A stretch of 64,000 bases of DNA, taken from contig JAQURS010000001.1 in NCBI GenBank assembly GCA_028715505.1, forward strand, positions 62,001-126,000, given 5' to 3'. The notes under the pieces were generated by a model. The model saw only the letters and a program-made list of their open reading frames with translations. It did no database searches and was not told where the DNA came from. The DNA is from Patescibacteria group bacterium. Its GTDB lineage: Bacteria > Patescibacteriota > Patescibacteriia > 2-12-FULL-60-25. Below are positions 43,817 to 58,211 of the stretch, piece after piece. Both the position numbers and the translations under genes were made by a program. Each line of letters starts with the position of its first letter. Position 1 is the first letter of the stretch.

Positions 43817-45172
43817 TCACTCGCAGCCGATGATGGCTGCCTTGGCGACGAAGGAGGCGTCCTTCTGTTGCTCGGTGTAGGCCACCATTATGCTATCGAG
43901 CGAATTGCCGACAGCTCGAGGGTAGTTCATGTAGTAACCCTTCACGTCCTGGACCACGACGAGCGGCTCCGTGATGGGCTTCATCGCGTCGTCAAAGACG
44001 CGAAGCTTCACCTTGAGCATCACTTGATCGTACTCGACGGCAGCGAGGCTGTTGCCGATTGATGACACCATCTGATCCCGAGGTACATCGAGAGTTGTCA
44101 CGTTTCCGCCGGACTGGCCGATGAGCGAGACGTGGGCGAAAAAATCACCGCCCTTGTTCTCATACCACCTTAGGGCAAAGAGGCCGTCGGGTCGCGCGGT
44201 CATCTCTCCAGTGTAGGCATCGTCGGCGGATCCGACAGGAAACTGCGCCAAATCGATTCGGATCATGGTGCTGTCCGCCTGTCGCAGAAAGACGCTGGCT
44301 GTTCGCGTGCCCTTGTCGTCCACCGTATTGACGGCCGCGCCGACTACGTCTCCCGAAACGGCCAAGCCAGTTACGGTATTCTGCACGTTCAGATCCTTGC
44401 CGCTCGCGAGCACGAGTTGATTGCCGATTACGCCGTTGGGAGCGACGTATCGGATGACGGCTGAGGATGTGTTGATCGTGAGGTCGAAGACGGTCTGGGA
44501 CATCCAGTAACCACCATTCTCCAGGCCGGCGAGATTCGCGGCGGGATAGGTTGGGTCTTCGTAGTCCACGGTCAGGGCATTGCCGATGACTCGGGCAGTC
44601 CGAAAGCGTTCGCCTTGGGTCGTCATGGCCGCGTAGCCCAGCAAGTATCCCTGTGGTGAGCCGTAAGCGACGATGCCGAACATGTCCGTGGTATCCGCCA
44701 CGGTCACGTCGCCTGCCGAGTTGCCTTCGAAATCCAGCGTCCTGAGCGCGCAGGTTGAGCCTGCCACGCACAAGGCTAGGCCAAAGCCCTTGGCGCCCAC
44801 GGCAGGAATGAAGGTCGGATCGGTTGCTCCGAAATCGACCGTGGTTTTGACGGCGCACTTCATGAGCGTCGTCGAAGTCTCGGCCTGAGCGTCCGCTTCC
44901 AACTCGGCATCCGGAGCCGCGGCTTCCGCTATGGCGTCCGAACCGGCGTCCGGTTCATCCGGGCACTGGCAGGGGTTGTACCCCGAGCCGTCGGACTTGC
45001 AGACCTGGACGCCTTTGTCGCCACCCAGGCAGCCGCAGCTGATCTGGGCACCGGAGATGCAGACGGACGCGGCCGCGTCGGGAAGGCCTTCGCCTTCTCC
45101 GATCAGGACATGGTCTTCGCAACCGACCAGAGCCACCAACGCAAACAACACCATCAACTTGAGATGTTTCAT
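43817..45172 (-). CDS. Lipoprotein with Cys-rich module and beta-propeller-like body
   Basis: A 451-residue lipoprotein: signal peptide MKHLKLMVLFALVALVGC with lipobox LVGC. Then a Cys-rich module (CISGAQISCGCLGGDKGVQ, VCKSDGSGYNPCQCP), an Asp/Ala linker, and a body with repeated strand pairs (VTVADTTDMFGIVAYGSPQG; NTVTGLAVSGDVVGAAVN) like a beta-propeller. The Cys module and DA-rich linker strongly resemble lipoproteins of Myxococcota, where this layout is frequent. AAAGGAA precedes the start. Its 5' leader contains the structured repeat at 45181-45314. Confidence 0.7.
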   Translation of the reverse strand: MKHLKLMVLFALVALVGCEDHVLIGEGEGLPDAAASVCISGAQISCGCLGGDKGVQVCKSDGSGYNPCQCPDEPDAGSDAIAEAAAPDAELEADAQAETSTTLMKCAVKTTVDFGATDPTFIPAVGAKGFGLALCVAGSTCALRTLDFEGNSAGDVTVADTTDMFGIVAYGSPQGYLLGYAAMTTQGERFRTARVIGNALTVDYEDPTYPAANLAGLENGGYWMSQTVFDLTINTSSAVIRYVAPNGVIGNQLVLASGKDLNVQNTVTGLAVSGDVVGAAVNTVDDKGTRTASVFLRQADSTMIRIDLAQFPVGSADDAYTGEMTARPDGLFALRWYENKGGDFFAHVSLIGQSGGNVTTLDVPRDQMVSSIGNSLAAVEYDQVMLKVKLRVFDDAMKPITEPLVVVQDVKGYYMNYPRAVGNSLDSIMVAYTEQQKDASFVAKAAIIGCE

Positions 45173-45319: not shown

Positions 45320-46630
45320 TCAGGGCTTGATGCCAAGCTCGACTTCGATGTCTGCTTGGGGGTACTTGAGCAGCCAGATGTAGTCGTCGGCCGAAGCGAG
45401 CGAGCTGCCCATCGTGTAGTCCACGAAGAAGTTATCCGCGATCAGGTACGTCCTGGCCTGGACCTCGCCTGGGTAAGGATAGATCCCTTCGAGAATCTGC
45501 GGCGAAGCCATCCGCAGGACATGGTGGTAGTCCACCACGTATCTCTTTGGATCTGTGGCGATGCCCATGATGTAAGCGCCGGGACGGCGAGTCACGTTGC
45601 CGCCGCCGAGGGGAATGGCGGCCAACTCAGCTTCGGTGATCTCGAGCACGTTCTGGCACACGGCATCATAGTCGTGAATCGGGATCGAATTGATATCAAG
45701 CGGCGCGTACCACGAGTCGAGCTCGATGCTCGTCGGGAAGACGTACCGCTTGCCGTTGCTGCCGAAGTAGTAGACGGAGTGGATGCCACTGGCTTTGATC
45801 AGATCGCCGGGTTTGAGATTTCCCAGGCTCACCTTCTTGAACGTGCCGCAGCAACCCAAATACGCTTTTTGCGGATCGGGGTCGTACGGGTCGCAGTAGA
45901 CAGCTTCCGAACTTGCTCCATCGCTGCCAGCGTCAGATCCAGCATCGTATCCTTCCGGCGGAGTCACGGTCTTGATCACGTCTTTGTGATTGATCACGAT
46001 TTCCGTATCTCCGTTGTCTGCCGATGCCAAAGCCACGGAAGCCTGGAACTGGTTGTTGTACAGTGTCCCAGGATAGGCTTCGTCGAGCGCGATGTTGATC
46101 GTAAAGCGCAGGTGGACGCATCCGTCAGCCTTGACCGTGAACGGATTGTGGAAGTCCGCGTAGGCGATCTGAGTTCCTGGTCCGCTGACGAGATTCACGG
46201 GTCCGGAAACGGTGTCCGCCCACCAATTGCCCCGCAGCCTCGCGCCGCTGAAGTTCCACTTGTCTTCTATGTGCAAGGGCTGGCCGTCTTGCAGGTTTTT
46301 GAGCTGCACGCGGATGTCCTTGGCGACGATGTCGCGGCAGGAATTGGCGCAATAGTTCATGCCCAAAAATACGGCGTCTTCAAACCCTGCCGGATAGGTG
46401 GAAAGGAAGTCCGGCTGGTTGCCTTCTTCTTTTTCCGTAATCGTCAGGGTCGGTTCGCAGCTGGCTTCGGCTTTGCCTCCGTCGGGTTGGACGGGGGGCG
46501 CGGCGTCGGTCGCGGGCGAGCTGGACGATGGCGTGACGAACGTCTGGTAATAGTTGTTCTCAACTTTCCCGCCGCACGCCATGCCAAGCGTAACCAACGC
46601 AAACGACGTCATCATCTTGATGAAGCTCAT
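45320..46630 (-). CDS. Lipoprotein with the shared KGSG/YRPG domain
   Basis: A 436-residue lipoprotein: signal peptide ending GMAC, then a Ser/Pro/Asp linker. Residues about 65-225 form a strand-rich domain (IRVQLKNLQDGQPLHIEDKW; FTVKADGCVHLRFTINIALD). A second Asp/Ser linker (YDAGSDAGSDGASSE) leads to a C-terminal domain (about 275-420): LIKASGIHSVYYFGSNGKRY, IPLGGGNVTRRPGAYIMGIA, TDPKRYVVDYHHVLR. This is the same domain as in the three secreted proteins at 54-57 kb, with an insertion. AAAGGGG precedes the start, and the structured leader repeat lies upstream. Confidence 0.7.
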   Translation of the reverse strand: MSFIKMMTSFALVTLGMACGGKVENNYYQTFVTPSSSSPATDAAPPVQPDGGKAEASCEPTLTITEKEEGNQPDFLSTYPAGFEDAVFLGMNYCANSCRDIVAKDIRVQLKNLQDGQPLHIEDKWNFSGARLRGNWWADTVSGPVNLVSGPGTQIAYADFHNPFTVKADGCVHLRFTINIALDEAYPGTLYNNQFQASVALASADNGDTEIVINHKDVIKTVTPPEGYDAGSDAGSDGASSEAVYCDPYDPDPQKAYLGCCGTFKKVSLGNLKPGDLIKASGIHSVYYFGSNGKRYVFPTSIELDSWYAPLDINSIPIHDYDAVCQNVLEITEAELAAIPLGGGNVTRRPGAYIMGIATDPKRYVVDYHHVLRMASPQILEGIYPYPGEVQARTYLIADNFFVDYTMGSSLASADDYIWLLKYPQADIEVELGIKP

Positions 46631-46639
46631 GTATTTGCC

Positions 46640-46774
46640 CCTTTCGAAGAGCGTGTCGAGCCAAGCTCGACGGTTAGCGGTCGGGTGCCGCGGTCAGAGT
46701 CTGTTCCCGCTTAAAGCGTCAAATGATTTAACGATTTAAGTGGGAGCCTCGAGAGTTCGAGGCGTGAGGAAGGT
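46640..46774 (-). repeat. Structured 5' leader repeat, copy 2
   Basis: A 135-base copy of 45181-45314. The stem at 46710-46740 shows the compensatory C-G to T-A exchange. Confidence 0.75.
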
Positions 46775-46804
46775 TCGATCGCGGCTCTGGCGAGCCACGG
46801 AATT

Positions 46805-48928
46805 TTAGTTGGAGAGGATGGTTGCCTTATCTCGGTTCTGGACCAAGTACGAGTTGGTCCAGTCCTTGGAGCCAAGCACCGAGGAGTTGTGGGGCAGCTC
46901 GCTTTGGTCGCTCCAGACCATGTCGCCGAGGACATGCCACCAAACATTTTGCCCATTGAGCTCCCCGATGTTGAAGACATTCGGGAAGCCTCCGTAAGGC
47001 GCGTACGAATCGTTGTTCAGGAGTTGGCCCCTCGCGACGGTGCTGGGTTGGTAGCTCAGGAACTTGGTCTTGACCGAGTTACCCGGGGTTGTGGTCAGGG
47101 TGACGGCTCGTAAGCAATACAGGTAACCCGATCCGCAGATGATGTCCTCATCGACCAGCGAAGCGGCGACCGTCAAATGCTCTTGGCTGGCAGGCTTGCA
47201 GCTCGTCTTGAGATCGGTGCCGAGGACGGCATCGGTAACGTTGAAGCTTGCCAGGTCGACCATCGTCGAACCGCGGTAAAGCTTGAAGTTGCAGACTTGC
47301 ACTCCACTCATCCCGCTAGTCTCAACGCTGAACATCTCTTGCTTGTACGCCGTGCAATCCGTCGGACTCGCCGCGGCGACCGAGACTTGCCAGCAGTGCA
47401 GAGCCATCTCCGCGTTGTAGAGCACGGGCGTGATTGGGTTATGCACGGTCACGATCGGCTTGACCTTGCGCAACACCATGGGATTCGGCTTGTCGCTCGG
47501 CGTGTACTTGGTCGGGATCTGGACGCCGTTTGAATCGGCGAACTTCACCAGGCGCAAGCACGGCGCGTGGCCGCTTCTCGAAACCGTGTTGTCGCCCGGA
47601 AACGAGCTGCTCGGCATGACGGGTTGCGTCTTGCCAAGGAGCGTTGCCTTGAGGCAGCCCTTGGCTGGAAGCGTCACACTGTCACCGGGATTGCCCATCC
47701 CGAAAGCGACTTGGAACATGTCGAAGGCCGATGAGCTCATGTGAGCCGTAGTCCCTTCGAAAGTTGAGTCGACCAAGGTGAAATCGCCACCCGCCCCATC
47801 GCAGGCTTGCTGGATGGTAGGGTAGGCGAATGTCACGGGGCTGTCGGTGAGATTGCAGACGTCCTGCTTGCTGAACTGATACATCGCATCGAAGCCAGCC
47901 ACGATGATGTCCGAAGCTGGCGTGTCAAGCGACGTCTTTACCTCGAGCACCGGTTGGAGCGGCAGGATCGTGAAGTTCGCGCTGGTCGTGTCAGGCGTCC
48001 AGAGGTACTCGTCCGAATTCATCGGACGGTCCACCGGCTCGTCTCCGCCAGCCTTCACAATCGCGCCCAATCCGATGTCCTGGATCTGGTATACCTGGTT
48101 GTAGAGTTCGCCGGGGGCGTCTTCCACGTTCCAGATATCCGTAACCACGCTCAGGATCTTGCACGTGCCAGCGTCCATGGAAACCGTGTCACCGTGAAAC
48201 TGCGCGCGTTGAGGCATGGTTTCTCCAGGACCGGTTTTGAGCTCGGTCGGCCCCATGACAGTCGTCGTGCCATCCTGCAACCTGATGGTGCGGAAGTAGC
48301 GGGTGCCCATCGAGCCTTCTGTCCTTGCGCCGTTCGAGACTTTCTGGAAGAAGAGCTCGTTGGAAAAGAGCTCGATCTTCTTGGTGGTGCAGAGCTGCAG
48401 CTTGTGAAGCTTGGCTCCATCCGTGCCGGCAACGAACTCCGTGGGCGATCCGGGTGAGCCGCTGATAGTCAGGATTGCCTGAGTACCAGCCTCGGCTTCC
48501 GCCTCGACAAGAGCATCGCTCTCGGCCTCGGCGTCCGCGTCAGCGCCGGTCTCGACTGCCAACGCATCCGCATCGGCATCGCTTCCGGCGTCCGCCTCGG
48601 TCGAAGTCTCGGCTCCGGAATCTGCTTCCGCGAGCGCGTCGGCTTCTGCCTCGGCTTGCGCGTCAGAATCGGTGGCCGCGTCCGTCGCGATCGCATCGTG
48701 TCCCGCGTCTTGCGGAACCCCGGGGCACTCGCAGGGATAGAATTCGTGGCCAGAGGCCTTGCAGATCTGGGTACCCTTGCCTTCCGCGCAACCGCACGAG
48801 ACTTGGGCGCCAGGAATGCAGCTCGGCGAGTTGTCGGTCGAAGCCAACTCCTCATCGGCGTCGTTTCGGCCGCCGCAGGCCGTAAACAGCACTGAGGCAA
48901 ACAGGCACAGCAAGATCTTCCAATTCAT
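46805..48928 (-). CDS. Large lipoprotein with Cys-rich module and DA-repeat linker
   Basis: A 707-residue lipoprotein: signal MNWKILLCLFASVLFTAC with lipobox FTAC. A Cys-rich module (CIPGAQVSCGCAEGKGTQIC, ASGHEFYPCECP) is homologous to that of the 43817 protein. Residues about 75-150 are an Asp/Ala/Glu repeat linker (SDAQAEAEADALAEADSGAE). The remaining 550 residues are strand-rich with scattered Cys pairs and no recognised domain. Codon repetition in the linker suggests expansion by slippage. CAAGGAGAGG precedes the start, with a promoter at 49014-49042. Confidence 0.7.
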   Translation of the reverse strand: MNWKILLCLFASVLFTACGGRNDADEELASTDNSPSCIPGAQVSCGCAEGKGTQICKASGHEFYPCECPGVPQDAGHDAIATDAATDSDAQAEAEADALAEADSGAETSTEADAGSDADADALAVETGADADAEAESDALVEAEAEAGTQAILTISGSPGSPTEFVAGTDGAKLHKLQLCTTKKIELFSNELFFQKVSNGARTEGSMGTRYFRTIRLQDGTTTVMGPTELKTGPGETMPQRAQFHGDTVSMDAGTCKILSVVTDIWNVEDAPGELYNQVYQIQDIGLGAIVKAGGDEPVDRPMNSDEYLWTPDTTSANFTILPLQPVLEVKTSLDTPASDIIVAGFDAMYQFSKQDVCNLTDSPVTFAYPTIQQACDGAGGDFTLVDSTFEGTTAHMSSSAFDMFQVAFGMGNPGDSVTLPAKGCLKATLLGKTQPVMPSSSFPGDNTVSRSGHAPCLRLVKFADSNGVQIPTKYTPSDKPNPMVLRKVKPIVTVHNPITPVLYNAEMALHCWQVSVAAASPTDCTAYKQEMFSVETSGMSGVQVCNFKLYRGSTMVDLASFNVTDAVLGTDLKTSCKPASQEHLTVAASLVDEDIICGSGYLYCLRAVTLTTTPGNSVKTKFLSYQPSTVARGQLLNNDSYAPYGGFPNVFNIGELNGQNVWWHVLGDMVWSDQSELPHNSSVLGSKDWTNSYLVQNRDKATILSN

Positions 48929-49013
48929 TGAACCTCTCCTTGTCTAAGGAACGGGTCGGGAACCGTTCCGTTTATCCGCCAAAGTTTTTCCCGTATGAAT
49001 CGATCACTTTTTG

Positions 49014-49042
49014 ACCTTATTTATTTTCGGCCAGTGAGTCAA
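49014..49042 (-). promoter_or_regulatory. Promoter of the 46805 gene
   Basis: TTGACT (49037-49042), 17-bp spacer, TAAGGT (49014-49019) on the minus strand. Confidence 0.6.
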
Positions 49043-49132
49043 CTCATATGGGATCCCGAACTCGCGAGGTAAATTTGCGGTTCAGGATACGTGAACATCC
49101 GGGATGGATGTTGGAAGGGGCGAAAGGGCGAA

Positions 49133-50068
49133 CTAGGCAGCGCAACTCATGTTCTCGAGCTTGATGAGGTCCGTTACTTGCTTGAGCTGATCCTTATCGA
49201 GGCCCGTCAGCTCAAGGAAACGAGGCATCACGCGTTTCTTGATCAGATCGACGTTCTGCTTCTTGATGCCGAACCGCTCGCCGATCTCGCGGAAACTCAG
49301 ATCGCCCTCAAAGCCCAGAAGTAGGCGGCAAATCTGCGTGTCCTGAGTGCCGAACTCGTCAGCCAGGTTGTCGAACGCCGTCAGGATCTTGGCCAGAAGA
49401 CGTTCGTATTTTTCCCAGAGCCGCTTTTCCGAGAGGAGCTCCTCGGCATCGGGATCTTCGTTGGCGACGCAGCCGGCATTCGTGAGTGACGAGTCGTCAT
49501 TCACGGGAGCCTGCAGGGCGATGTTCTTGGCGCTGATGGTGCCCAGATACCGCTCGACCTGTTCGATGCCCATGGCCTTGCAAGGCTTGTCGGTTCGCGC
49601 CTTCAGTTTGTTCAGGACATCTTCGGCCGTAGGAGGCTCTTCGAAATCCTTCTTCATCTGGCGTACTTTCCGGAGCTGCCTGCTCTGCCATTCCGTCATG
49701 CGGCACGGCTCGTGATCCGGACGGTTGGCGGCAACGTAGTCCCGGATCGCGTTGAATACGGTCCGGTTTCCGTACGCCATGACGTTGGCACGTTCAGGAT
49801 TGTAGGCCTGCGACGTGGCGATCATGTCCTGGAGAGCGAGAACGCCCTCATGGAGCAACTCGACGAGAGGCAGGCCCGAAAGGTAGAACTTCTTCGCGAT
49901 GATCAGTACGTCCATGATGCAGCTCGCGATGACCCGCACGTAAGCGTTTTGAAGGTCATCCTTGGAAGCCTCCGTGCCGCGGATTATGGCGAACAGCTTC
50001 ACGCGTTCTCCATCCGTGATGGTGGAAGGATATGAAGCGTATGCCTTGAGGTATTCGTGGAGTTCCAT
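49133..50068 (-). CDS. Sigma-70 family RNA polymerase sigma factor
   Basis: A 311-residue sigma factor. Region 2 is about residues 37-115 (DLQNAYVRVIASCIMDVLII, LPLVELLHEGVLALQDMIAT, YGNRTVFNAIRDYVAANRP), a region 3-like part follows (EEPPTAEDVLNKLKARTDKP), and region 4 lies near 240-295 (DTQICRLLLGFEGDLSFREI, GERFGIKKQNVDLIKKRVMP) with its helix-turn-helix. There is no region 1.1, so it is an alternative or accessory sigma. AAAGGATGG precedes the start. It sits in the lipoprotein block, and no anti-sigma gene is adjacent. Which promoters it serves is unknown. Confidence 0.85.
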   Translation of the reverse strand: MELHEYLKAYASYPSTITDGERVKLFAIIRGTEASKDDLQNAYVRVIASCIMDVLIIAKKFYLSGLPLVELLHEGVLALQDMIATSQAYNPERANVMAYGNRTVFNAIRDYVAANRPDHEPCRMTEWQSRQLRKVRQMKKDFEEPPTAEDVLNKLKARTDKPCKAMGIEQVERYLGTISAKNIALQAPVNDDSSLTNAGCVANEDPDAEELLSEKRLWEKYERLLAKILTAFDNLADEFGTQDTQICRLLLGFEGDLSFREIGERFGIKKQNVDLIKKRVMPRFLELTGLDKDQLKQVTDLIKLENMSCAA

Positions 50069-50204
50069 GGCAATCCATCCTTTCGGGGGTTGCTGAATGT
50101 CGGTTTGAAGGTACTGCGGTACTTCCGGTCCGAGTTACTCTGCTAGAGAGTCGCTCGGACTGGAGCCCGAGAGTTCGGGCAAAGGTGGGAGTGTTCGGTG
50201 GGAA
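50069..50204 (-). promoter_or_regulatory. Structured leader of the sigma factor gene
   Basis: The leader holds GCCCGA/TCGGGC, TCCGAG/CTCGGA and GGAAGTACC-type hairpins. The first has the same loop (ACTC) as the GCCTCGA/TCGAGGC hairpin of the two leader repeats at 45.2 and 46.7 kb, so it may be a diverged relative. Confidence 0.4.
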
Positions 50205-50606
50205 CTACTTGCGCTTGATGACCTTGGGCCACATGACTTCGACGCTGGCTTCGAGGCGCTTGAGCCGCTCGTCGAGATCCCTGAGCCGCTCGCTCTGGAA
50301 GGGAGCCATCTTGAGCTCCTTGCGAACGCGCTCGACCGTGTCGTAGATCGTCATGATCATCTGCTCATCGGCGAGAGCGCGGCTCTTGAGTTGCGCGCTT
50401 TCTTTGTCGAGCAGCCTGATGTTGTTCTCGAGCTGGCTGAGGCGCTGGTTCTGATCGGAGTCGAGACGCATGGTGCGTCCGTCCTGCCGGTCGAGGTAGG
50501 CCACCTTTCGCTCGAGTTCGTTTTGCGCCGCGCAGCCGGTAAGCGGCAACGCGAGGATGAGGGCCAGTACGGCCATGGAACCGGGTTTGCGGAGTCCGGG
50601 TTTCAT
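50205..50606 (-). CDS. Small coiled-coil lipoprotein
   Basis: A 133-residue lipoprotein with signal peptide and lipobox LTGC, followed by an almost continuous coiled coil (QNELERKVAYLDRQDGRTMR; LSQLENNIRLLDKESAQLKS; ERLRDLDERLKRLEASVEVM). The layout resembles Lpp or the N terminus of CpoB/YbgF. TAGGAGG precedes the start. The promoter at 50718-50746 is nearly consensus. It lies upstream of the sigma factor and may share its transcript. Confidence 0.7.
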   Translation of the reverse strand: MKPGLRKPGSMAVLALILALPLTGCAAQNELERKVAYLDRQDGRTMRLDSDQNQRLSQLENNIRLLDKESAQLKSRALADEQMIMTIYDTVERVRKELKMAPFQSERLRDLDERLKRLEASVEVMWPKVIKRK

Positions 50607-50717
50607 CTGAAATTCCTCCTAGGGACTTGGTTTAGCGACGGTTTAAGTCGGAGTCCCTGTCTTTACCCGTGATTTCCTCCTGGGCGAAGACAGAAATTCC
50701 GCTTAAAATAACTAAAA

Positions 50718-50746
50718 ATAATAGCATAAATTAGCCATTTTGTCAA
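50718..50746 (-). promoter_or_regulatory. Promoter of the 50205 lipoprotein
   Basis: TTGACA (50741-50746), 17-bp spacer, TATTAT (50718-50723) on the minus strand. The spacer begins AAATGGC, as in the regulator promoter at 12283. Confidence 0.75.
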
Positions 50747-50785
50747 GGCTGCTAGAGCAATATTTTGGCTAAGATTAGCAAAATC

Positions 50786-50809
50786 AAAATGGCTCAGTTG
50801 AGCCATTTT
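50786..50809. terminator. Terminator downstream of fba
   Basis: AAAATGGCTCA/TGAGCCATTTT perfect hairpin, usable on both strands. Confidence 0.75.
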
Positions 50810-50830
50810 GGAGTTTTTATCATTATATGG

Positions 50831-51748
50831 TCAGGCCTTACCTTCGCTTTTGAACAAGATCATTTTCCGCATGGCGATCTCGCGCATCAGGATTATGGCT
50901 GGTTCAAGCAGTTTTCGGGGGTCGATCACGTTACCCATCTGATCCACCGCTTCGCGGATGCCGGCCGTGAAACCCAACCTCAAATCAGTATCAATGTTTA
51001 TCTTGCTGACGCCGTATTTGATGGCCTGCTTGATGTCTTCGTCCAAAACGCCGCGAGCTTTGCCCAGTTTGGCGCCGTGGTATTCGGCCAGTTTAACGAC
51101 GTCTTCCATCACGCCCGAAGCGCCGTGCAACACGATCGGATTTTTGACGAGCCTGGCGATCTTCTTTAACCGTTCGATATCAAGGTGAGTCTCGCCTTTG
51201 AATTTGAAAGCCCCGTGTGCCGTACCGATGGCCACAGCCAAACTATCGCACTTGGTTTCTTTTACGAACTTGGCCGCCTGCTCAGGATTTGTGAGGTGCG
51301 CGTCTTTTTCCTCCACGCTCACGAAATCCTCGATGCCCGCGATGGCGCCGATCTCGGCTTCGACGCTGACTTTTTTAGCGCGCGCCCAAGCCACGACTTG
51401 TTTTGTTTTAGCGACGTTCTCTTTTAGCGGGAGCGACGAGCCGTCGAACATCACGCTGGTGTAACCTTTTTGGATGGCTTCCTTAATAAGTTTAAGATTT
51501 TTTCCGTGATCCAAATGTAAAGCCATGGGAATCGGCGCCTTGGCCGCGACTTTGGCCATGGCGATCAGGTAATCCATGCCCGCGTACTCGATCGCGCCTT
51601 CGGAAGTCTGCACGATAATGGGGGAGCGCATCTTAACGGCCGCGGCCACGATGGCTTTGAGCGCTTCCAAGTTGTTGATGTTCAAAGCGGGCACGGCGTA
51701 ATGCCTTTCGCGCGCCGATTTGAGGATTTTAATGGCTGGTACGAGCAT
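50831..51748 (-). CDS. fba: Class II fructose-bisphosphate aldolase
   Basis: A 305-residue zinc-dependent aldolase, cleaving fructose-1,6-bisphosphate to dihydroxyacetone phosphate and glyceraldehyde-3-phosphate. Family motifs: YAVPALNINNLEALKAIV, MALHLDHGKNLKLIKEAI (His zinc ligand and catalytic Asp), SVMFDGSSLPLKENV, VSVEAEIGAIAG, AVAIGTAHGAFKF and VLHGASGV, GVSKINIDTDLR. It could also be a tagatose-bisphosphate aldolase of the same family. It is the last gene of the tkt operon, starting 4 bases after the preceding stop. Confidence 0.93.
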   Translation of the reverse strand: MLVPAIKILKSARERHYAVPALNINNLEALKAIVAAAVKMRSPIIVQTSEGAIEYAGMDYLIAMAKVAAKAPIPMALHLDHGKNLKLIKEAIQKGYTSVMFDGSSLPLKENVAKTKQVVAWARAKKVSVEAEIGAIAGIEDFVSVEEKDAHLTNPEQAAKFVKETKCDSLAVAIGTAHGAFKFKGETHLDIERLKKIARLVKNPIVLHGASGVMEDVVKLAEYHGAKLGKARGVLDEDIKQAIKYGVSKINIDTDLRLGFTAGIREAVDQMGNVIDPRKLLEPAIILMREIAMRKMILFKSEGKA

Positions 51749-51752
51749 AAAA

Positions 51753-52319
51753 TTATTTTTTTTCTAAGGCGTTAATCAACTCAGCGACTACTGTTAATTC
51801 AGCTTGGGCCTCGGCCAGCAATATTTGGTTGGATCCTTGCGATTCGGATTGAGAGGTCGCCTGCCTTAGGTTGGCCGCCTTGTCCTTCTCGATGGCTTTT
51901 AAAGTCAAAATAAGATCGGCGGGCAAAGGATGGCCTGAATTCAAGTTATCATAAGCTTCGATCAAACTCATGTACCTTAGTTTGTGTCCCAACAAAAAAT
52001 CTTCCTGCTTTTTGATGTCATCAATGGTGTACTCTTTGTAGACCAAGCCTTTCATGTGACGTCGTTCACTCTTGGGTTTTCTCATGCTAGTCAACAATGC
52101 GTCGGCGGCCTGCACGGACCCTTTCTCAAATTCCAATTGTTTAACTAAAAAAGGCAAAAGCCTGGTTTTGAGTTTTGATTCGGGGGTTTCCCGCATGGTT
52201 TTTTGAGATCGAGGATTTTCGGGCGGGGCGGGTGGAAGCTTACCTTCCTTGCGCAGTTGGGCGATCTGGTCCGGTGTCAAACAAATGTTGGCCTTGGGAT
52301 CTTCGAATTTCTTGGACAT
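51753..52319 (-). CDS. Hypothetical helical protein in the tkt-fba operon
   Basis: A 188-residue soluble protein without known domain. The N-terminal 60 residues are polar (LPPAPPENPRSQKTMRETPE). The rest is helical with coiled-coil tendency (FLLGHKLRYMSLIEAYDNLN; LILTLKAIEKDKAANLRQAT; LAEAQAELTVVAELINALEK). It lies between tkt C-terminal and fba genes with gaps of 1 and 4 bases, so it is part of the operon. Any role in sugar-phosphate metabolism is guesswork. Confidence 0.65.
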   Translation of the reverse strand: MSKKFEDPKANICLTPDQIAQLRKEGKLPPAPPENPRSQKTMRETPESKLKTRLLPFLVKQLEFEKGSVQAADALLTSMRKPKSERRHMKGLVYKEYTIDDIKKQEDFLLGHKLRYMSLIEAYDNLNSGHPLPADLILTLKAIEKDKAANLRQATSQSESQGSNQILLAEAQAELTVVAELINALEKK

Positions 52320-52320
52320 A

Positions 52321-53298
52321 TTATTTACGATTGATGGCTTTTAAAGCCGCTTTGACGATGTTTTCCTTGGTCATACCGTATTTTGCCAGCAATTCGTCCG
52401 GGGCGCCAGACTCGCCGAATTTATTGGGCATGCCGATTGGTTCGACGGGCACGGGATATCTCTTGGCCAGGCACTCGGATACTGCCCCGAAAAGTCCGCC
52501 CATAAGCTGATGCTCCTCGACCGTCACGGCGCAATGGGTCTTTTTGACAGACTGGACGATGGTTTTGGCGTCCAAGGGTTTGATGGTGTGCGAATTGATA
52601 ACTTCGGCTTCGATGCCTTGTTCGGCCAGCATCTCGGCTGCCATCAATGTTTGGTGGAGCAGGGGACCGCAGGCGATGATCGTCACGTCATAACCCTCGC
52701 GGCAAAGATTGGCCTGGCCGATTTTAAAAGGTGTTTGTTTGACCGTGATGACCGGCGTCTTCTCGCGTCCGAAACGGAAGTAAACCGGGCCTTTATGGGC
52801 CGCGGCGGCCAACGTACATTTCCTGGTTTCTTCCGCGTCGCACGGAGCTATGACGACTAGACCCGGAATGGCGCGGGTGATGGCCATGTCTTCGAGCGCC
52901 TGATGAGTCGCGCCGTCCGGACCCACGCTCACGCCAGTGTGGGCGCCCGCAATTTTGACGTTGGCTTTTGAATAACAAACTGAAACGCGCAGCTGGTCCC
53001 AGTTCCTACCCGGCGAGAAGACGGCGTAAGAAGACACGAAGGGAATTTTGCCGGTCAAAGCCAAACCGGCCGCCACGCCCATCATGTTTTGTTCAGCCAC
53101 GCCGCACTCCACGAAACGGTTGGGGTATTTTTTTTGAAAGGGGAGCACGCGAGTGGATTCGCCCACGTCGGCCGTCAGGACAACAACTTTGGGATTGCTT
53201 TTGCCCAGCTCCAACAAACCTTCGCCATAGCCGTCGCGCGTGGCTTTTTTCTCGACCGTCTTATACATCCAGTATTTGCTTAAACTTATGGGCTTCAT
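52321..53298 (-). CDS. tkt: Transketolase, C-terminal subunit
   Basis: A 325-residue protein holding the pyrimidine-binding and C-terminal domains of transketolase: VVVLTADVGESTRVLPF, RFVECGVAEQNMMGVAAGLA (the Glu that activates thiamine diphosphate), HTGVSVGPDGATHQALEDMA, and GYDVTIIACGPLLHQTLMAA. The start MKPISLSKYWMYK is chosen because it overlaps the upstream subunit's stop (ATGA); earlier in-frame codons lie inside that gene. Split transketolases are common in archaea and small bacteria. Confidence 0.93.
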   Translation of the reverse strand: MKPISLSKYWMYKTVEKKATRDGYGEGLLELGKSNPKVVVLTADVGESTRVLPFQKKYPNRFVECGVAEQNMMGVAAGLALTGKIPFVSSYAVFSPGRNWDQLRVSVCYSKANVKIAGAHTGVSVGPDGATHQALEDMAITRAIPGLVVIAPCDAEETRKCTLAAAAHKGPVYFRFGREKTPVITVKQTPFKIGQANLCREGYDVTIIACGPLLHQTLMAAEMLAEQGIEAEVINSHTIKPLDAKTIVQSVKKTHCAVTVEEHQLMGGLFGAVSECLAKRYPVPVEPIGMPNKFGESGAPDELLAKYGMTKENIVKAALKAINRK

Positions 53299-54116
53299 AG
53301 CTTGCTTAATTCTTCCAAAGCTTGTTTGGCTTCTTTGGGATTCGGGGCTTTGCCGTGCCATTCGTATTTATTCTCCATGAAACTCACGCCTTTGCCTGGG
53401 ATTGTATGACAAATTATTGCCGTGGGTTTGGATTGATTTTTCGCGCGGCGCATGGCTTTGATAATCAAAGGCATTTTATGCCCGTTAATTTCGATGACTT
53501 TCCAGTTGAATGCCTTTAATTTCTTTTTGAAAATTTCGAGCGGCATGACGTCTTCCGTGTTGCCGCTGATTTGTATTCGGTTGCGATCGATCAGAGCCGT
53601 CAAACCGCCAAGCTTGAGTTTACCGGCCAGCATAAAAGCTTCCCAAGTCTGGCCTTCGTCAAACTCGCCGTCACTCATCAGGCACCAAACGTGGAAGGGT
53701 GATTTATCCATCCTGCCGGCGATGGCCATGCCAACCGCTTGCGAGATGCCTTGGGAAAGCGGCCCCCCGGACGTCTCAATGCCAATATCGAAATGATTAT
53801 TTGAATGCCCTTGCAGCCGTGATCCAAGCCGGCGAAGCGTCATCAATTCCTTAATCGGAAAATATCCGCGGCGGGCCAAAGCCGAATACAGGACGGGGCA
53901 GATGTGGGCGTTCGAAAGCACCACGCGGTCGCGCTTGGGGTTATGCTTTTTTTGCGGATCGAGGTTGGCTTCGTCTCCAAAATAAAGCGCCGTCAAAACG
54001 TCGGCCATGCCAAGCGAACCGGCGGGATGGCCGGAACCGGCTTGGGCGATCATCTTAATCACGTCCTGCCGTATCAGGTTCGCGGTTTCTTCCATTTGGC
54101 GGATCGCAAGGTCCAT
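53295..54116 (-). CDS. tkt: Transketolase, N-terminal subunit
   Basis: A 273-residue thiamine-diphosphate-binding half: IAQAGSGHPAGSLGMADVLT, RDRVVLSNAHICPVLYSAL, DIGIETSGGPLSQGISQAVG, and the ThDP/Mg2+ motif MSDGEFDEGQTWEAF continuing through LIDRNRIQISG. It works with the next gene's product in the non-oxidative pentose-phosphate pathway. A TACAAT -10 lies 11 bases before the ATG, so the operon mRNA has little or no leader. It starts the tkt-tkt-unknown-fba operon. Confidence 0.94.
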   Translation of the reverse strand: MDLAIRQMEETANLIRQDVIKMIAQAGSGHPAGSLGMADVLTALYFGDEANLDPQKKHNPKRDRVVLSNAHICPVLYSALARRGYFPIKELMTLRRLGSRLQGHSNNHFDIGIETSGGPLSQGISQAVGMAIAGRMDKSPFHVWCLMSDGEFDEGQTWEAFMLAGKLKLGGLTALIDRNRIQISGNTEDVMPLEIFKKKLKAFNWKVIEINGHKMPLIIKAMRRAKNQSKPTAIICHTIPGKGVSFMENKYEWHGKAPNPKEAKQALEELSKL

Positions 54117-54147
54117 ATCCTGCGATATTGTATCACGATCCGGGCAT

Positions 54148-54181
54148 AAAAAAGAGACGCGGTTTTTCGCGTCTCTGTTTT
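54148..54181 (-). terminator. Terminator of the 54195 gene
   Basis: AGAGACGCG/CGCGTCTCT stem followed by a T-run on the minus strand. The same stem style ends the 56540 gene. Confidence 0.8.
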
Positions 54182-54194
54182 ATTCGATTACGTG

Positions 54195-54983
54195 TTATTT
54201 AACGTTGACCGTGCCTACGATCGATGAATGCAGCCCATCGTAATACTGGAATGAGCCGGTCGTGTTGAACGTGTGGCTGTATGACTGGTTGTAGGAAAGG
54301 TTGTCCGATTGGAAGCCGTCGCTCTTCACGCTGTGCGAAGCGCTGTCTTGGTTGGTCCAGGTAACAGTCGCGCCTTTCTTGACGGTGATGGTGGCCGGAA
54401 CGAAGCCGGAAAGCGTGCTGCCAATGGAGATGGCCGCGACCGTGTCGTCAAAACCCTTATCCTGCGAGATGGTGGTCGTCATGGTCATGACGTTCGACGG
54501 GGTAAATTCGCTGGCGCTCGTGATGGCGTTGCCGACTTTGTAGTTGGTGAAGAAAGCATCCGGCACGTCGTCGATTTGGTTTTTCCAATTGATGTTGTAA
54601 AGAGTCTGGGCCAACTGCTCGGTCGAAACGTGGCGCAGATAACCGCCGCGGTCCACGGCGTAGACTTTCGGATCAGTCGTGATTTTAACCATCTTCTTAC
54701 CCGGGCGATAAGTCACGTTGCCGCCAAGGGGAATGGTCTGGAGCATGTAATCAGGGATTTGGAGAACGCCGTCGAAATTGCTATACCAGGTGAAATAAGT
54801 CTTTTCGTTCGGGAAGACCAGGCGTTTGCCGTTTTCCGCGAAATAGTAAACGGTCTGGCCCGATCCTTTGATCAGGTCGCCGGCGTTAAAAGCGGTCGTG
54901 ACCGCGGCCTGGCTGGCGATTGGCATGACCAAACCCATGGCCATGGCGGCAGCCGAGGCTAAACTGATGGCTCGTTTAAACAT
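54195..54983 (-). CDS. Secreted KGSG/YRPG-domain protein with cupredoxin-like C terminus
   Basis: A 262-residue protein: signal peptide (1-27); the shared domain (about 35-150: LIKGSGQTVYYFAENGKRLV, IPLGGNVTYRPGKKMVKITT, DDVPDAFFTNYKVG); and a C-terminal cupredoxin fold (about 175-262: PATITVKKGATVTWTNQD, SASHSVKSDG, then YYDGLHSSIVGTVNV). The first copper His (ASHSV) and the second (GLHSS) are present, but the blue-copper Cys position is Asp (DGLH instead of CxxH) and the Met position is Ile. It is therefore unlikely to hold a type 1 copper. It follows a private terminator/promoter arrangement within the metabolic block. Confidence 0.72.
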   Translation of the reverse strand: MFKRAISLASAAAMAMGLVMPIASQAAVTTAFNAGDLIKGSGQTVYYFAENGKRLVFPNEKTYFTWYSNFDGVLQIPDYMLQTIPLGGNVTYRPGKKMVKITTDPKVYAVDRGGYLRHVSTEQLAQTLYNINWKNQIDDVPDAFFTNYKVGNAITSASEFTPSNVMTMTTTISQDKGFDDTVAAISIGSTLSGFVPATITVKKGATVTWTNQDSASHSVKSDGFQSDNLSYNQSYSHTFNTTGSFQYYDGLHSSIVGTVNVK

Positions 54984-55047
54984 AAAAATTAAATGAGGAT
55001 TAAGATTGAACTTATTGATTATGTCTTGTTTCAGGCAAAAACGTCAA

Positions 55048-56460
55048 TTATTGGACGGTCACTGTCGTTGAGTTTTCATTAGTTGCCCCAAGCGGATCAG
55101 TTGCTTTGCCGTAAAAAGTTATCGTGCCTTTTTGCGTCCAAGGCCCGGTCGTGACTATACAGAGGGCGGCGCCGTCGCAGTGTTTGAGTAGTTTATGGTT
55201 GGCATCATAAACATCGGTCGAGGCCGTGCCGTCCTGGTCCGATCCGCTGACGGTAATATCTACCGTTTCGCCCGCGTAAATCCAAGGCTTGGCGGCCAAG
55301 ACTTGCACGGCCGGCACGTCGTTGTCCGAAAGGGTGATGGTTTTGATCGCGGTGTAGTAAACCCGTCCCAAGATGTCGGTTATGGTTCCCTGGGCGGTGT
55401 AAACCGTCCCGACGGTTCCCGTGAAAGCCTCGCTCCATTTGCATGAGCGGCCGGGATAATCGCAACCCTTGTGCGCGTTGCCGTTCACGTAGATCGTGAT
55501 ATTTTTAACGTCGATTCCCAAATCGGTTTCAACCGTGATGCCGGTGAATTGGCCGGGCCGGATGACTGGTTGGTCAATCGTGATCAAAGCGCCTTGATCG
55601 GGCGAGGTACTGGTGGCAACGGGGATATTAACGGTTTTAGTCACCTCGGTCATGTCGATGCCTTGAGCGATGGCTTTGGCCACGTAAGTCGTTTTATCGA
55701 AACTTCCGGGGACTTTATAGCTGCCGGAACATAAGGTCGTGAAATTGCAGGTCGTCACCAATTTGTCGTCGAAAAACAGAGTAATCAGCCGCATGCCTTT
55801 GGCGTAAGCGGCGGTGGCATTCAGTCCAACCGTGTCGTTGACGTGCAAAGTGGTTTTATCGCTGACCAATTTAAGGTCTATCGCGTCAGCGTTAGAGCTT
55901 GTGCTGGTTGTGTTCTGGTTGTCGCTCGGAAAAGTCGAAACGGTCGCTTTGTCGACGTCGATGCTGGTGGCCTGGGTTGTTGCCTGAGACGGATCGTAAT
56001 CCGAAACGGAAACGATCGGCGATCCGGTTTTATAATTGGTAAAGAAAGCGTCCGGCACGTCATCCACTTTTTTGGACCAGTCTGATCCGTAGAGCGTTGT
56101 GGCTAAAGCTTCCGTCGTCACGTGGCGGAGCGTGCCGTTGGCGGCCACGGCGTAGACTTTGGGGTCGGTCGTGATTTTGACGAGCTTGACTCCGGGTCGG
56201 TAAGTCACGTTGCCGCCGAGTGAGATGGCGGCCATCTGAACGTCATCGATCGTTCTGACTCCCGAAAAATCGCTGTACCAAGTTTTGTAAGTGTTTTCGG
56301 TCGGGAAGACGAGGCGCTTGCCGTTTTGACTAAGATAATAAACAGCTTGGCCTGAGCCTTTAATGAGCGTGCCCGGTCCTAATGTTCCGGCTTTGGCCGG
56401 CAAGGCGGAGAGGCAGAACAGGGCGGCTAAGCCCAGGGAAATCAAGGAAAAATGTCGCAT
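55048..56460 (-). CDS. Secreted KGSG/YRPG-domain protein with Ig-like repeats
   Basis: A 470-residue protein: signal peptide (1-25); the shared domain (about 28-150: LIKGSGQAVYYLSQNGKRLV, ISLGGNVTYRPGVKLVKITT, DDVPDAFFTNYKTG); a Ser/Thr/Asp linker; then three strand-rich Ig-like segments (about 200-470), each with a Cys pair (CNFTTLC; CDYPGRSC; CDGAALC). The small Cys loops suggest disulfides in an exported protein. The Ig-like part may reach or bind another surface. Confidence 0.7.
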   Translation of the reverse strand: MRHFSLISLGLAALFCLSALPAKAGTLGPGTLIKGSGQAVYYLSQNGKRLVFPTENTYKTWYSDFSGVRTIDDVQMAAISLGGNVTYRPGVKLVKITTDPKVYAVAANGTLRHVTTEALATTLYGSDWSKKVDDVPDAFFTNYKTGSPIVSVSDYDPSQATTQATSIDVDKATVSTFPSDNQNTTSTSSNADAIDLKLVSDKTTLHVNDTVGLNATAAYAKGMRLITLFFDDKLVTTCNFTTLCSGSYKVPGSFDKTTYVAKAIAQGIDMTEVTKTVNIPVATSTSPDQGALITIDQPVIRPGQFTGITVETDLGIDVKNITIYVNGNAHKGCDYPGRSCKWSEAFTGTVGTVYTAQGTITDILGRVYYTAIKTITLSDNDVPAVQVLAAKPWIYAGETVDITVSGSDQDGTASTDVYDANHKLLKHCDGAALCIVTTGPWTQKGTITFYGKATDPLGATNENSTTVTVQ

Positions 56461-56486
56461 ATGATTATGAGTATATCATTCGATTA

Positions 56487-56527
56487 TAAAAAAGTAGAGA
56501 CGCCCGATTGGGCGTCTCTGGTTTTGA
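56487..56527 (-). terminator. Terminator of the 56540 gene
   Basis: AGAGACGCCC/GGGCGTCTCT stem followed by a T/A-rich tract on the minus strand. Confidence 0.75.
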
Positions 56528-56539
56528 ACACGGATTTTA

Positions 56540-57073
56540 TCAATTAGTCGGAGCGGGCAAGCCTTTGTCCTGCCAGATGGCCGTGGCGGACGCCAGCTCG
56601 TTGGCCACGTTGAACTCGATGGAGTTCTGCAAGTTGGTCCCGTACTGGTAGTTGGTGAAGAAAGCGTCCGGCACGTCATCCACTTTTTTTGACCAGTCCG
56701 ATCCGTAGAGCGTAACCGCCATGGCCTCGTCTTTAACCCACCTCAAGTATCCGCCTTTGGAAACGGCGTAGACTTTGGGATCGGTCGTGATTTTGACGAG
56801 CTTGGAACCGGGGCGATAAGTCACGTTGCCGCCGAGCGGAATCGATGAAAGGTCGGAATCGGAAATCTTTACGACCTTCGAATAATCATTGCCGTACCAA
56901 GAAGCGTAGGTCTTCTCGGTTGGGAAGACGAGGCGTTTGCCGTTGGTGGCGTAATAATAAACCGCCGCTCCCGAGCCCTTGATCAACGTGTTTGGTTGCA
57001 CGCTCAAAGCATGGGTTGGCATGGCGTAGGCCAGAAAGATGGCGGCCGCCGCGAACATCATCAGTTTTTTCAT
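56540..57073 (-). CDS. Secreted KGSG/YRPG-domain protein, minimal form
   Basis: A 177-residue protein: signal peptide (MKKLMMFAAAAIFLAYAMP, 1-23) and little more than the shared domain (LIKGSGAAVYYYATNGKRLV, IPLGGNVTYRPGSKLVKITT, DDVPDAFFTNYQYG), with a short C-terminal helix. It therefore shows the domain's natural limits, about 120 residues. The start at 57073 is preferred over one six codons upstream, which lacks a signal-peptide-like N terminus. Confidence 0.7.
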   Translation of the reverse strand: MKKLMMFAAAAIFLAYAMPTHALSVQPNTLIKGSGAAVYYYATNGKRLVFPTEKTYASWYGNDYSKVVKISDSDLSSIPLGGNVTYRPGSKLVKITTDPKVYAVSKGGYLRWVKDEAMAVTLYGSDWSKKVDDVPDAFFTNYQYGTNLQNSIEFNVANELASATAIWQDKGLPAPTN

Positions 57074-57083
57074 AAAATTCACG

Positions 57084-57112
57084 TCTGTCATTCCCGCGAA
57101 GGCGGGAATCCA
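57084..57112. repeat. Palindromic GCGGGAAT element
   Basis: ATTCCCGC-GAAG-GCGGGAAT hairpin with flanking TC/CCAG. This palindrome resembles a widespread intergenic repeat seen in many bacteria. A single copy was noticed here. Confidence 0.5.
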
Positions 57113-57121
57113 GAAAATTAA

Positions 57122-57784
57122 TTAATTATTAATTAGCTGTTTGTAAGCAAAGGAAGGATCTTTAGCCATGAAGATGGCACCCGCGGCATTCAAACGGTCG
57201 GCTCCAGCCTTAATAATCGTCTTGGCGTTCTTCAAACTGATTCCTCCGTCCACGCCGATCCTGATCTTCGGACGTTTGCGCAAGGTTCGGAGAGTTTTAA
57301 GCGCTTCAGGCATGAACTTCTGTCCCGATCTGCCGGGCTTGACTCCCATCACCAAGACTTCATCGATTAAACCTGGTTTAAGGAAAGGTCGCAACTCCTC
57401 GAGCGAAGTGCCGGGGCTGATGGCCAGGCCCGGTTCGATTTTAAACTCACGCGTCATTTCAATCAACTCGCCGTGTTCGATCGGAGCCTCGATGTGCCAG
57501 ATGGCGCGTTTGAGTTCAAGATATTCATGCCACTCGCGGATAATACTCCAAGGGTCTTCGACCATGAGATGCAATTCGATGGCCGGAACGTCCTCCGGGG
57601 GATTAAGCAAATACTCGGCGAACCAACGTCCGTTGTTCAAATCGCGGGGCGTTTTATTTTTGACGAACAGGCCGTCCATGACGTCGATCTGCACGGTCTT
57701 GGAAAGTTTGGCCGCGGCCTCCAGTTTCTTAAAAAATTCTTTTTTGCTTTGGGCCAGAATGGCCGGAATGATTTCGAGTTTCAT
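57122..57784 (-). CDS. rpe: Ribulose-phosphate 3-epimerase
   Basis: A 220-residue TIM-barrel enzyme interconverting ribulose-5-phosphate and xylulose-5-phosphate. Matching segments: IIPAILAQSKKEFFKKLE, TVQIDVMDGLFVKNKT (catalytic Asp), IELHLMVEDPW, EVLVMGVKPGRSGQKFMPEA, and IRIGVDGGISLKNAKTI (second Asp). The phosphate-binding loop near AGADRLNAAGAIF is present. The usual IxPSxL start reads IIPAIL and the central His/Met pattern is slightly divergent. It begins one base after the rpiB stop. Confidence 0.87.
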   Translation of the reverse strand: MKLEIIPAILAQSKKEFFKKLEAAAKLSKTVQIDVMDGLFVKNKTPRDLNNGRWFAEYLLNPPEDVPAIELHLMVEDPWSIIREWHEYLELKRAIWHIEAPIEHGELIEMTREFKIEPGLAISPGTSLEELRPFLKPGLIDEVLVMGVKPGRSGQKFMPEALKTLRTLRKRPKIRIGVDGGISLKNAKTIIKAGADRLNAAGAIFMAKDPSFAYKQLINN

Positions 57785-57785
57785 A

Positions 57786-58211
57786 TTATCCTAACTGTTT
57801 GACTCTTCGCACGTGCCGTGCGGCCGTGGAAGCCCGGGTCTTTAAAAAAGCGTCAATCATCTTGGCGGCTTTGGATTCGTCCGCGTGGTTCCAGCCCGAA
57901 AGGCAGAGTACGTTAATGTCGTTGTGCTCGCGCGCTTGTTTCACTTCTTCGGTCGAGTGGCCCACGGCCGCGCGGATGCCTTTGGCGCGGTTGGCCGCTA
58001 TACAAACTCCGACTCCGCTGCCGCAGAATAAGATGCCTCGACCAGCTTTGGATAATTTGCCCGTGAGTTTTTTTGCCACGCCCGGGTAGTCGTCGCCGTC
58101 CTTGAAAATCGGCGTCAGGTCCACGAGTTTGTTGCCTAGCCTGGAGAGGTGCGCCTTAAGCCTGTCTTTGAGCGCGAAGCCCGCGTGATCGGCCGCAAGA
58201 TAAATTGTCAT
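57786..58211 (-). CDS. rpiB: Ribose-5-phosphate isomerase B
   Basis: A 141-residue RpiB/LacAB-family enzyme converting ribose-5-phosphate and ribulose-5-phosphate. Key segments: IYLAADHAGFALKDRLKAHL, DDYPGVAKKLTGKL, GRGILFCGSGVGVCIAANRA (with the catalytic Cys in FCGSG), KGIRAAVGHSTEEVKQAREH and NDINVLCLSG. It is divergent from ileS. With rpe, the tkt genes and fba it completes a non-oxidative pentose-phosphate set. Confidence 0.94.
   Translation of the reverse strand: MTIYLAADHAGFALKDRLKAHLSRLGNKLVDLTPIFKDGDDYPGVAKKLTGKLSKAGRGILFCGSGVGVCIAANRAKGIRAAVGHSTEEVKQAREHNDINVLCLSGWNHADESKAAKMIDAFLKTRASTAARHVRRVKQLG

Follow-up and report, generated by a model that had tools for sequence, protein, structure and literature searches.

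We analysed a 64,000-nucleotide stretch of patescibacterial DNA (hereafter, the window) and found that four proteins of different architecture encoded within it share a module which, according to structure modeling, is composed of two successive copies of one β-α unit. This fixed tandem of two ~57-residue repeats with the fold of the EccB repeats probably functions as a non-covalent cell-envelope anchor. Proteins bearing the module would be exported, the terminal module would bind peptidoglycan, or a glycopolymer attached to it, in the cell's own wall, and the remainder of the carrier, be it an S-layer-like β-sandwich chain, a glycosidase, a cupredoxin or Ig domains, would be displayed. The module could thereby work like the SLH domain, without sequence relation to it, as a "foot" for many different surface proteins. 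That the module binds, what it binds, and that this ligand is the cell's own are points that we infer from the evidence below.

An initial annotation had described a domain of about 120 residues in the proteins beginning at positions 56540, 55048, 54195 and 45320. The shared domain was confirmed by alignment, which showed near-unbroken identities over about 130 residues in the four carriers (all on the - strand), and by a domain profile. Its extent required revision: a domain of ~130 residues plus a tail of ~20 residues is common to all four, and the conserved unit, about 150 residues long and internally duplicated, has eight carriers in the genome. The tail is helical, lies at the end of the unit, and often ends in I-x-x-DKG. 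The protein at 56540-57091 (183 aa; domain at 56543-57007, structure model) contains little beyond the module, as initially noted. Its repeat 1 (56822-56998; C1:118822-118998) and repeat 2 (56630-56812) were located with a repeat profile in which its own sequence is a row; repeat 2 also corresponds to the second E-E-E-H-H-E-H set in the model. With this copy as the reference, identity over the domain was 61-66% for the proteins at 55048 and 54195. The former (55048-56460, 470 aa) carries an N-terminal module (55987-56382; repeats at 56206-56376 and 56014-56196); the region described as Ig-like repeats does follow the module, but its Pfam match is weak (Big_7, E 1). In the latter (54195-54983, 262 aa), the module (54495-54890; repeats at 54714-54881 and 54522-54704) precedes a cupredoxin-like domain (54207-54479), whose assignment was upheld by PF13473 (E 4.4e-7). 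The fourth carrier, a putative lipoprotein of 436 aa (45320-46630), has the anticipated diverged, insertion-bearing module at its C-terminus (45371-45817, by alignment and domain profile), with 40% identity to the reference over the domain and a match of about 1e-46 to a domain profile whose 8 rows include its own sequence. All four proteins appear to be exported, as was proposed, given their signal-like N-termini, and the lipoprotein label reflects an N-terminal Cys motif; both were judged by eye. In the cupredoxin-like domain of 54195, the usual Cys ligand position is occupied by Asp (YYDGLH). The Cys is present in relatives at loci L011, L022 and L093 (e.g., YHCGIH, YYCGIH) and absent from most homologues; because this copper ligand has been lost, the domain in 54195 probably no longer holds type-1 copper.

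Across an alignment of 106 diverse module sequences, 8 columns do not vary and over 30 hardly do. Such conservation makes it very unlikely that the module is a structural spacer without ligand, kept since it is well folded and exported, even though no catalytic motif was recognised in it and the nearly single-domain protein at 56540 could be a remnant.

Consistent with the proposal that the domain belongs to no named family, no Pfam or NCBIfam model exceeded its curated cut-off on the module or on the wider repeat described below, and literature searches found no paper on the module. Matches to DUF3483, NdhS, AstE_AspA_hybrid and G2F were below cut-off and mutually inconsistent, and were dismissed as chance. 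An AlphaFold2 model of the module (106 sequences; pLDDT 96.7, pTM 0.89) gave a first set of elements in the order E E E H E H E, a second in the order E E E H H E H, and a pair of helices at the end. The call of an internal duplication, which was absent from the initial annotation, as was the larger family, was made because of this model and the repeat profile; when the two repeats alone were aligned to each other with hhalign, no useful probability resulted. The best structural matches in the PDB were EccB repeats (3x3m, Z 6.0, rmsd 2.0 Å over 53 residues; 5cyu, Z 6.0), followed by weaker matches to the endolysin LysIME-EF1 (Z 3.4) and to PlyCB (Z 2.6). A search of viral structures yielded phage lysins with M23, CHAP, amidase or lysozyme domains, only at E 0.05-1.3. 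In sequence, the profiles matched antibodies and BURRH repeats in the PDB; the latter reached 1e-4 by adding up fragments of less than 5 bits, and all these matches were rejected as chance. Thus, the possibility of a new fold, raised initially, was not borne out: the predicted structure consists of EccB-type repeats. EccB1 has four repeats, each a four-stranded sheet with two helices, the first of which was likened to PlyCB, a peptidoglycan-binding protein through which a lysin is held at the cell wall; the authors state that experimental data on whether EccB1 binds the wall are still lacking (PMC4769845).

Weak matches of the domain profile outside the window's class came from proteins in which a single repeat of ~57 residues clearly recurs two to six times (G-T-L-[IV]-K ... 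V-Y-L-[IV]-x-N-G-x-K-R ... F ... V ... [LI]-x-x-[YL]-P-x-G). Even with all sequences of the window's class excluded from its construction, a repeat profile matched 56540, 55048 and 54195 at 6e-12, 2e-11 and 2e-10, respectively, and shuffled controls gave nothing below 1.5. In this leave-class-out test, repeat 1 scored strongly (iE 8.9e-9 in 56540) and repeat 2 alone weakly (iE 0.1-1.3); 45320 was below significance (0.076) and was placed by the domain profile instead. The same profile matched CgeD of B. subtilis (2e-12), a CDP-glycerol glycerophosphotransferase-like protein of Priestia (3e-15), a PGF-pre-PGF surface protein of the methanogen Methanomethylovorans (2e-14), and three actinophage proteins (7e-10 to 1.6e-4), with Streptomyces phages accounting for two matches near 1e-9. 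Streptomyces EccB was marginal at 0.41, and reached 0.013 once repeats of the class were added. Among the profile libraries used, one profile only captured the repeat convincingly, PHROG 9616, whose function is unknown: it matched the wider repeat at locus L131 at 6.1e-32 and module relatives at loci L061 and L017 at 1.1e-6 and 2e-5, and had no match at E<=1 to 56540 or 55048 of the window. Judged by these matches, the relation of the window module to PHROG 9616 is homology of the repeat, not family membership. Scans of viral contigs yielded no relative when the query was the module or a consensus repeat, and near copies only when it was a phage protein. The possibility of a distribution restricted to Patescibacteria, raised initially, therefore survives in part: the fixed two-repeat form appears to be so restricted, but the repeat itself, on sequence grounds, is not, as it occurs also in phage, Bacillus, Priestia and a methanogen. 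It is conceivable, though we would not yet favor it, that a widespread and as yet unrecognised wall-glycopolymer-binding family, with this repeat as its founding unit, unites EccB, Bacillus spore and teichoic-acid glycosyltransferases, and actinophage and patescibacterial surface proteins, with the two-repeat form replacing SLH in the window's class as the anchor of the S-layer and most surface enzymes.

The domain profile matched 54 of 57 near relatives, with 4-13 copies per genome within the family. In an even sample of the phylum (381 genomes: 34 of the window's class and 347 others), it matched 31 of the 34 genomes and, weakly, 31 of the 347; the wider repeat was found in all 34 and in 67 of the others. 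A contig scan with one peptide pattern placed named loci, among its best 77, in Uhrbacteria, Falkowbacteria, Kerfeldbacteria, Buchananbacteria, Paceibacter and Parcubacteria; most of these lineages we take to fall in class ABY1. One contig, labelled Candidatus Methylomirabilis (L042), encodes a typical patescibacterial module protein of ~1,200 aa and may be misbinned.

A search of the whole 1.07-Mb genome with 56540 recovered 8 module copies, all at E <=7.6e-19. Besides the four in the window, one is on C20, in a protein that is truncated by the end of the contig and belongs to a family of ~1,300 residues, one on C6, in an open frame of 1,747 aa, one on C1 (at 216 kb), in a protein of 286 aa, and one on C2, in a lipoprotein-like protein of 287 aa. 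The genome also encodes a 488-aa protein (C2:86.8 kb) with an N-terminal domain of ~200 residues and four repeats. Its ~490-aa counterpart in several genomes (L146:1735-3198) has the same arrangement; the N-terminal domain holds an INPKYLL.LLQKEQSL motif and looks lytic-transglycosylase-like by eye, and in some genomes a similar protein runs on into a D-Ala-D-Ala carboxypeptidase. In the window, the genes at 56540, 55048 and 54195 lie between RPE/RpiB and split transketolase genes (52321-58211), and this RpiB-RPE-[module proteins]-TktN-TktC block is kept whole or in part in 20 loci of those compared. Two similar intergenic hairpins (AAAGAGACGC...GCGTCTCT), at 54148-54181 and 56491-56524, resemble related transcription terminators. 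Next to 45320 lies a gene for a 707-aa lipoprotein-like protein without the module (46805-48928), which matches the C-terminal half of the tail of the S-layer-like carrier discussed below (E 2e-41); 45320 has the module and a weak match to that tail (0.004). A third lipoprotein-like gene beside these two (43817-45172) shares their style of Asp/Ala/Glu-rich linker and had no Pfam match over cut-off.

Among 140 domain-bearing frames (some loci overlap), the module was N-terminal in 109, C-terminal in 18, nearly alone in 9 and otherwise placed in 4; each protein has one module, mostly terminal. Its partners include a GH10 xylanase (7.6e-78), a right-handed β-helix, Big_1/Invasin_D3, Rha78A-type Ig domains and cupredoxins. 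The wider repeat is fused in three genomes to Peptidase_S11, a D-Ala-D-Ala carboxypeptidase (E 2.8e-30 to 2.5e-27), and elsewhere to S8 subtilase, GH123, Lysyl_oxidase/GSDH, SH3_3 or LamG. The most widespread carrier, of about 1,200-1,500 residues, consists of the module, often a third repeat, and a tail of ~1,100 residues, which makes up a single family extending to other classes (L134, 1.8e-150; L135, 2.7e-73). When the first 703 residues of the ~1,300-residue carrier were modeled, the third repeat was followed by a chain of β-sandwiches, and the closest solved folds were sialidase N-terminal β-sandwiches and Ig-type strings. The architecture seen, an N-terminal module plus a β-sandwich chain, makes this carrier a candidate S-layer protein. 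That S-layer-like and minor surface proteins carry the same module would also suit a protein-protein docking part that joins the minor proteins to the lattice protein or to each other rather than to a wall polymer, and EccB repeats do pack on each other via hydrophobic residues (PMC4769845). We consider such docking improbable; the wider repeat is found in proteins unrelated to any S-layer, namely those of phage, CgeD and the Priestia protein.

Terminal position, one module per protein, varied cargo and relatives on peptidoglycan enzymes are, taken together, the mark of an anchor that attaches to the wall non-covalently, as SLH does. The initial suggestion of a general surface or attachment module thus gains support from the terminal position, the varied exported partners, the paralogous expansion throughout the class and the wall-active partners of the wider repeat, and across the whole class the fixed tandem form appears to serve as a surface anchor specific to this lineage. 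Given that the genome encodes MurC and that no SLH, sortase or PG_binding_1 match was found in the whole of it, another anchor is plausible; a different patescibacterial lineage was reported to have 8-10 SLH genes (PMC13059738). SLH and the repeat occurred together in 1 of the 381 genomes versus 11 expected (Fisher 2.6e-5), though genomes are not independent, and by family the overlap was not significantly reduced (2 versus 4.1 expected, p 0.25).

The module could instead be an outward-facing adhesin that binds a glycan or protein on the surface of a host cell, with its partner domains holding it on the patescibacterium. Patescibacteria are inferred epibionts (PMC13059738), the multiple paralogues per genome would be in keeping with such a role, and homologous repeats occur in phage proteins whose genes lie close to that of a minor tail protein or to some other large gene. 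We nonetheless regard an adhesin as unlikely, for the wider repeat is fused to a wall enzyme, the D-Ala-D-Ala carboxypeptidase; the module comes first after the signal sequence in S-layer-like proteins, the usual place of an anchor; and its sequence is strongly conserved throughout the class, whereas host-recognition surfaces tend to diversify.

Several observations weigh against the favored reading of a wall anchor. The PlyCB and LysIME matches are weak, and a Z near 6 may stem from an arrangement that is widely shared. Homologous repeats are also found in some probably cytoplasmic enzymes (CgeD and the glycerophosphotransferase), and so the ancestral role may be general glycopolymer binding or only scaffolding. 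Moreover, two lipoprotein-like carriers (45320 and the C2 copy) would already be anchored in the membrane. How CPR bacteria build and dress their envelope is unclear (PMC5220378), and a class-wide anchor would provide a handle on the patescibacterial surface proteome, in that the module would mark proteins as likely to be displayed at the surface, with the S-layer-like carrier as a concrete candidate. It would also give the EccB repeats, for which peptidoglycan contact has been proposed (PMC4769845), a testable function.

Compared with known systems, the module most resembles repeats R1-R4 of EccB (T7SS_ESX1_EccB, PF05108/TIGR03919), with a repeat of ~55 residues comprising a four-stranded sheet and two helices. 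The likeness concerns the repeat, not EccB as a whole: EccB arranges four repeats around a core domain, with a transmembrane helix, inside a secretion complex, whereas in the module two repeats stand free at a terminus of diverse exported proteins. The window proteins had no match to the EccB profiles, and EccB was the sole, weak sequence match of the wider repeat at L146 (E 0.061 in Pfam, 0.089 in NCBIfam; 12.4 bits versus a cut-off of 27). The window's module genes are not in a type VII secretion locus; three of the four lie in the pentose-phosphate block conserved in relatives. PlyCB, the wall-binding subunit of the phage C1 lysin, gave a low-scoring structural match (Z 2.6) to one module repeat; it is a subunit of an octameric ring and no sequence relation was found. 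The small actinophage proteins of PHROG 9616 likewise have two tandem copies of the repeat, but they stand alone and no signal-like N-terminus was seen in them. SLH (PF00395), a helical domain usually present in three copies, had no sequence match to the window proteins, and in the sample it was present in other Patescibacteria and in none of the window's class. What the module would share with SLH, under the anchor reading, is the role of a terminal, repeated, non-covalent anchor of the S-layer and of minor enzymes.
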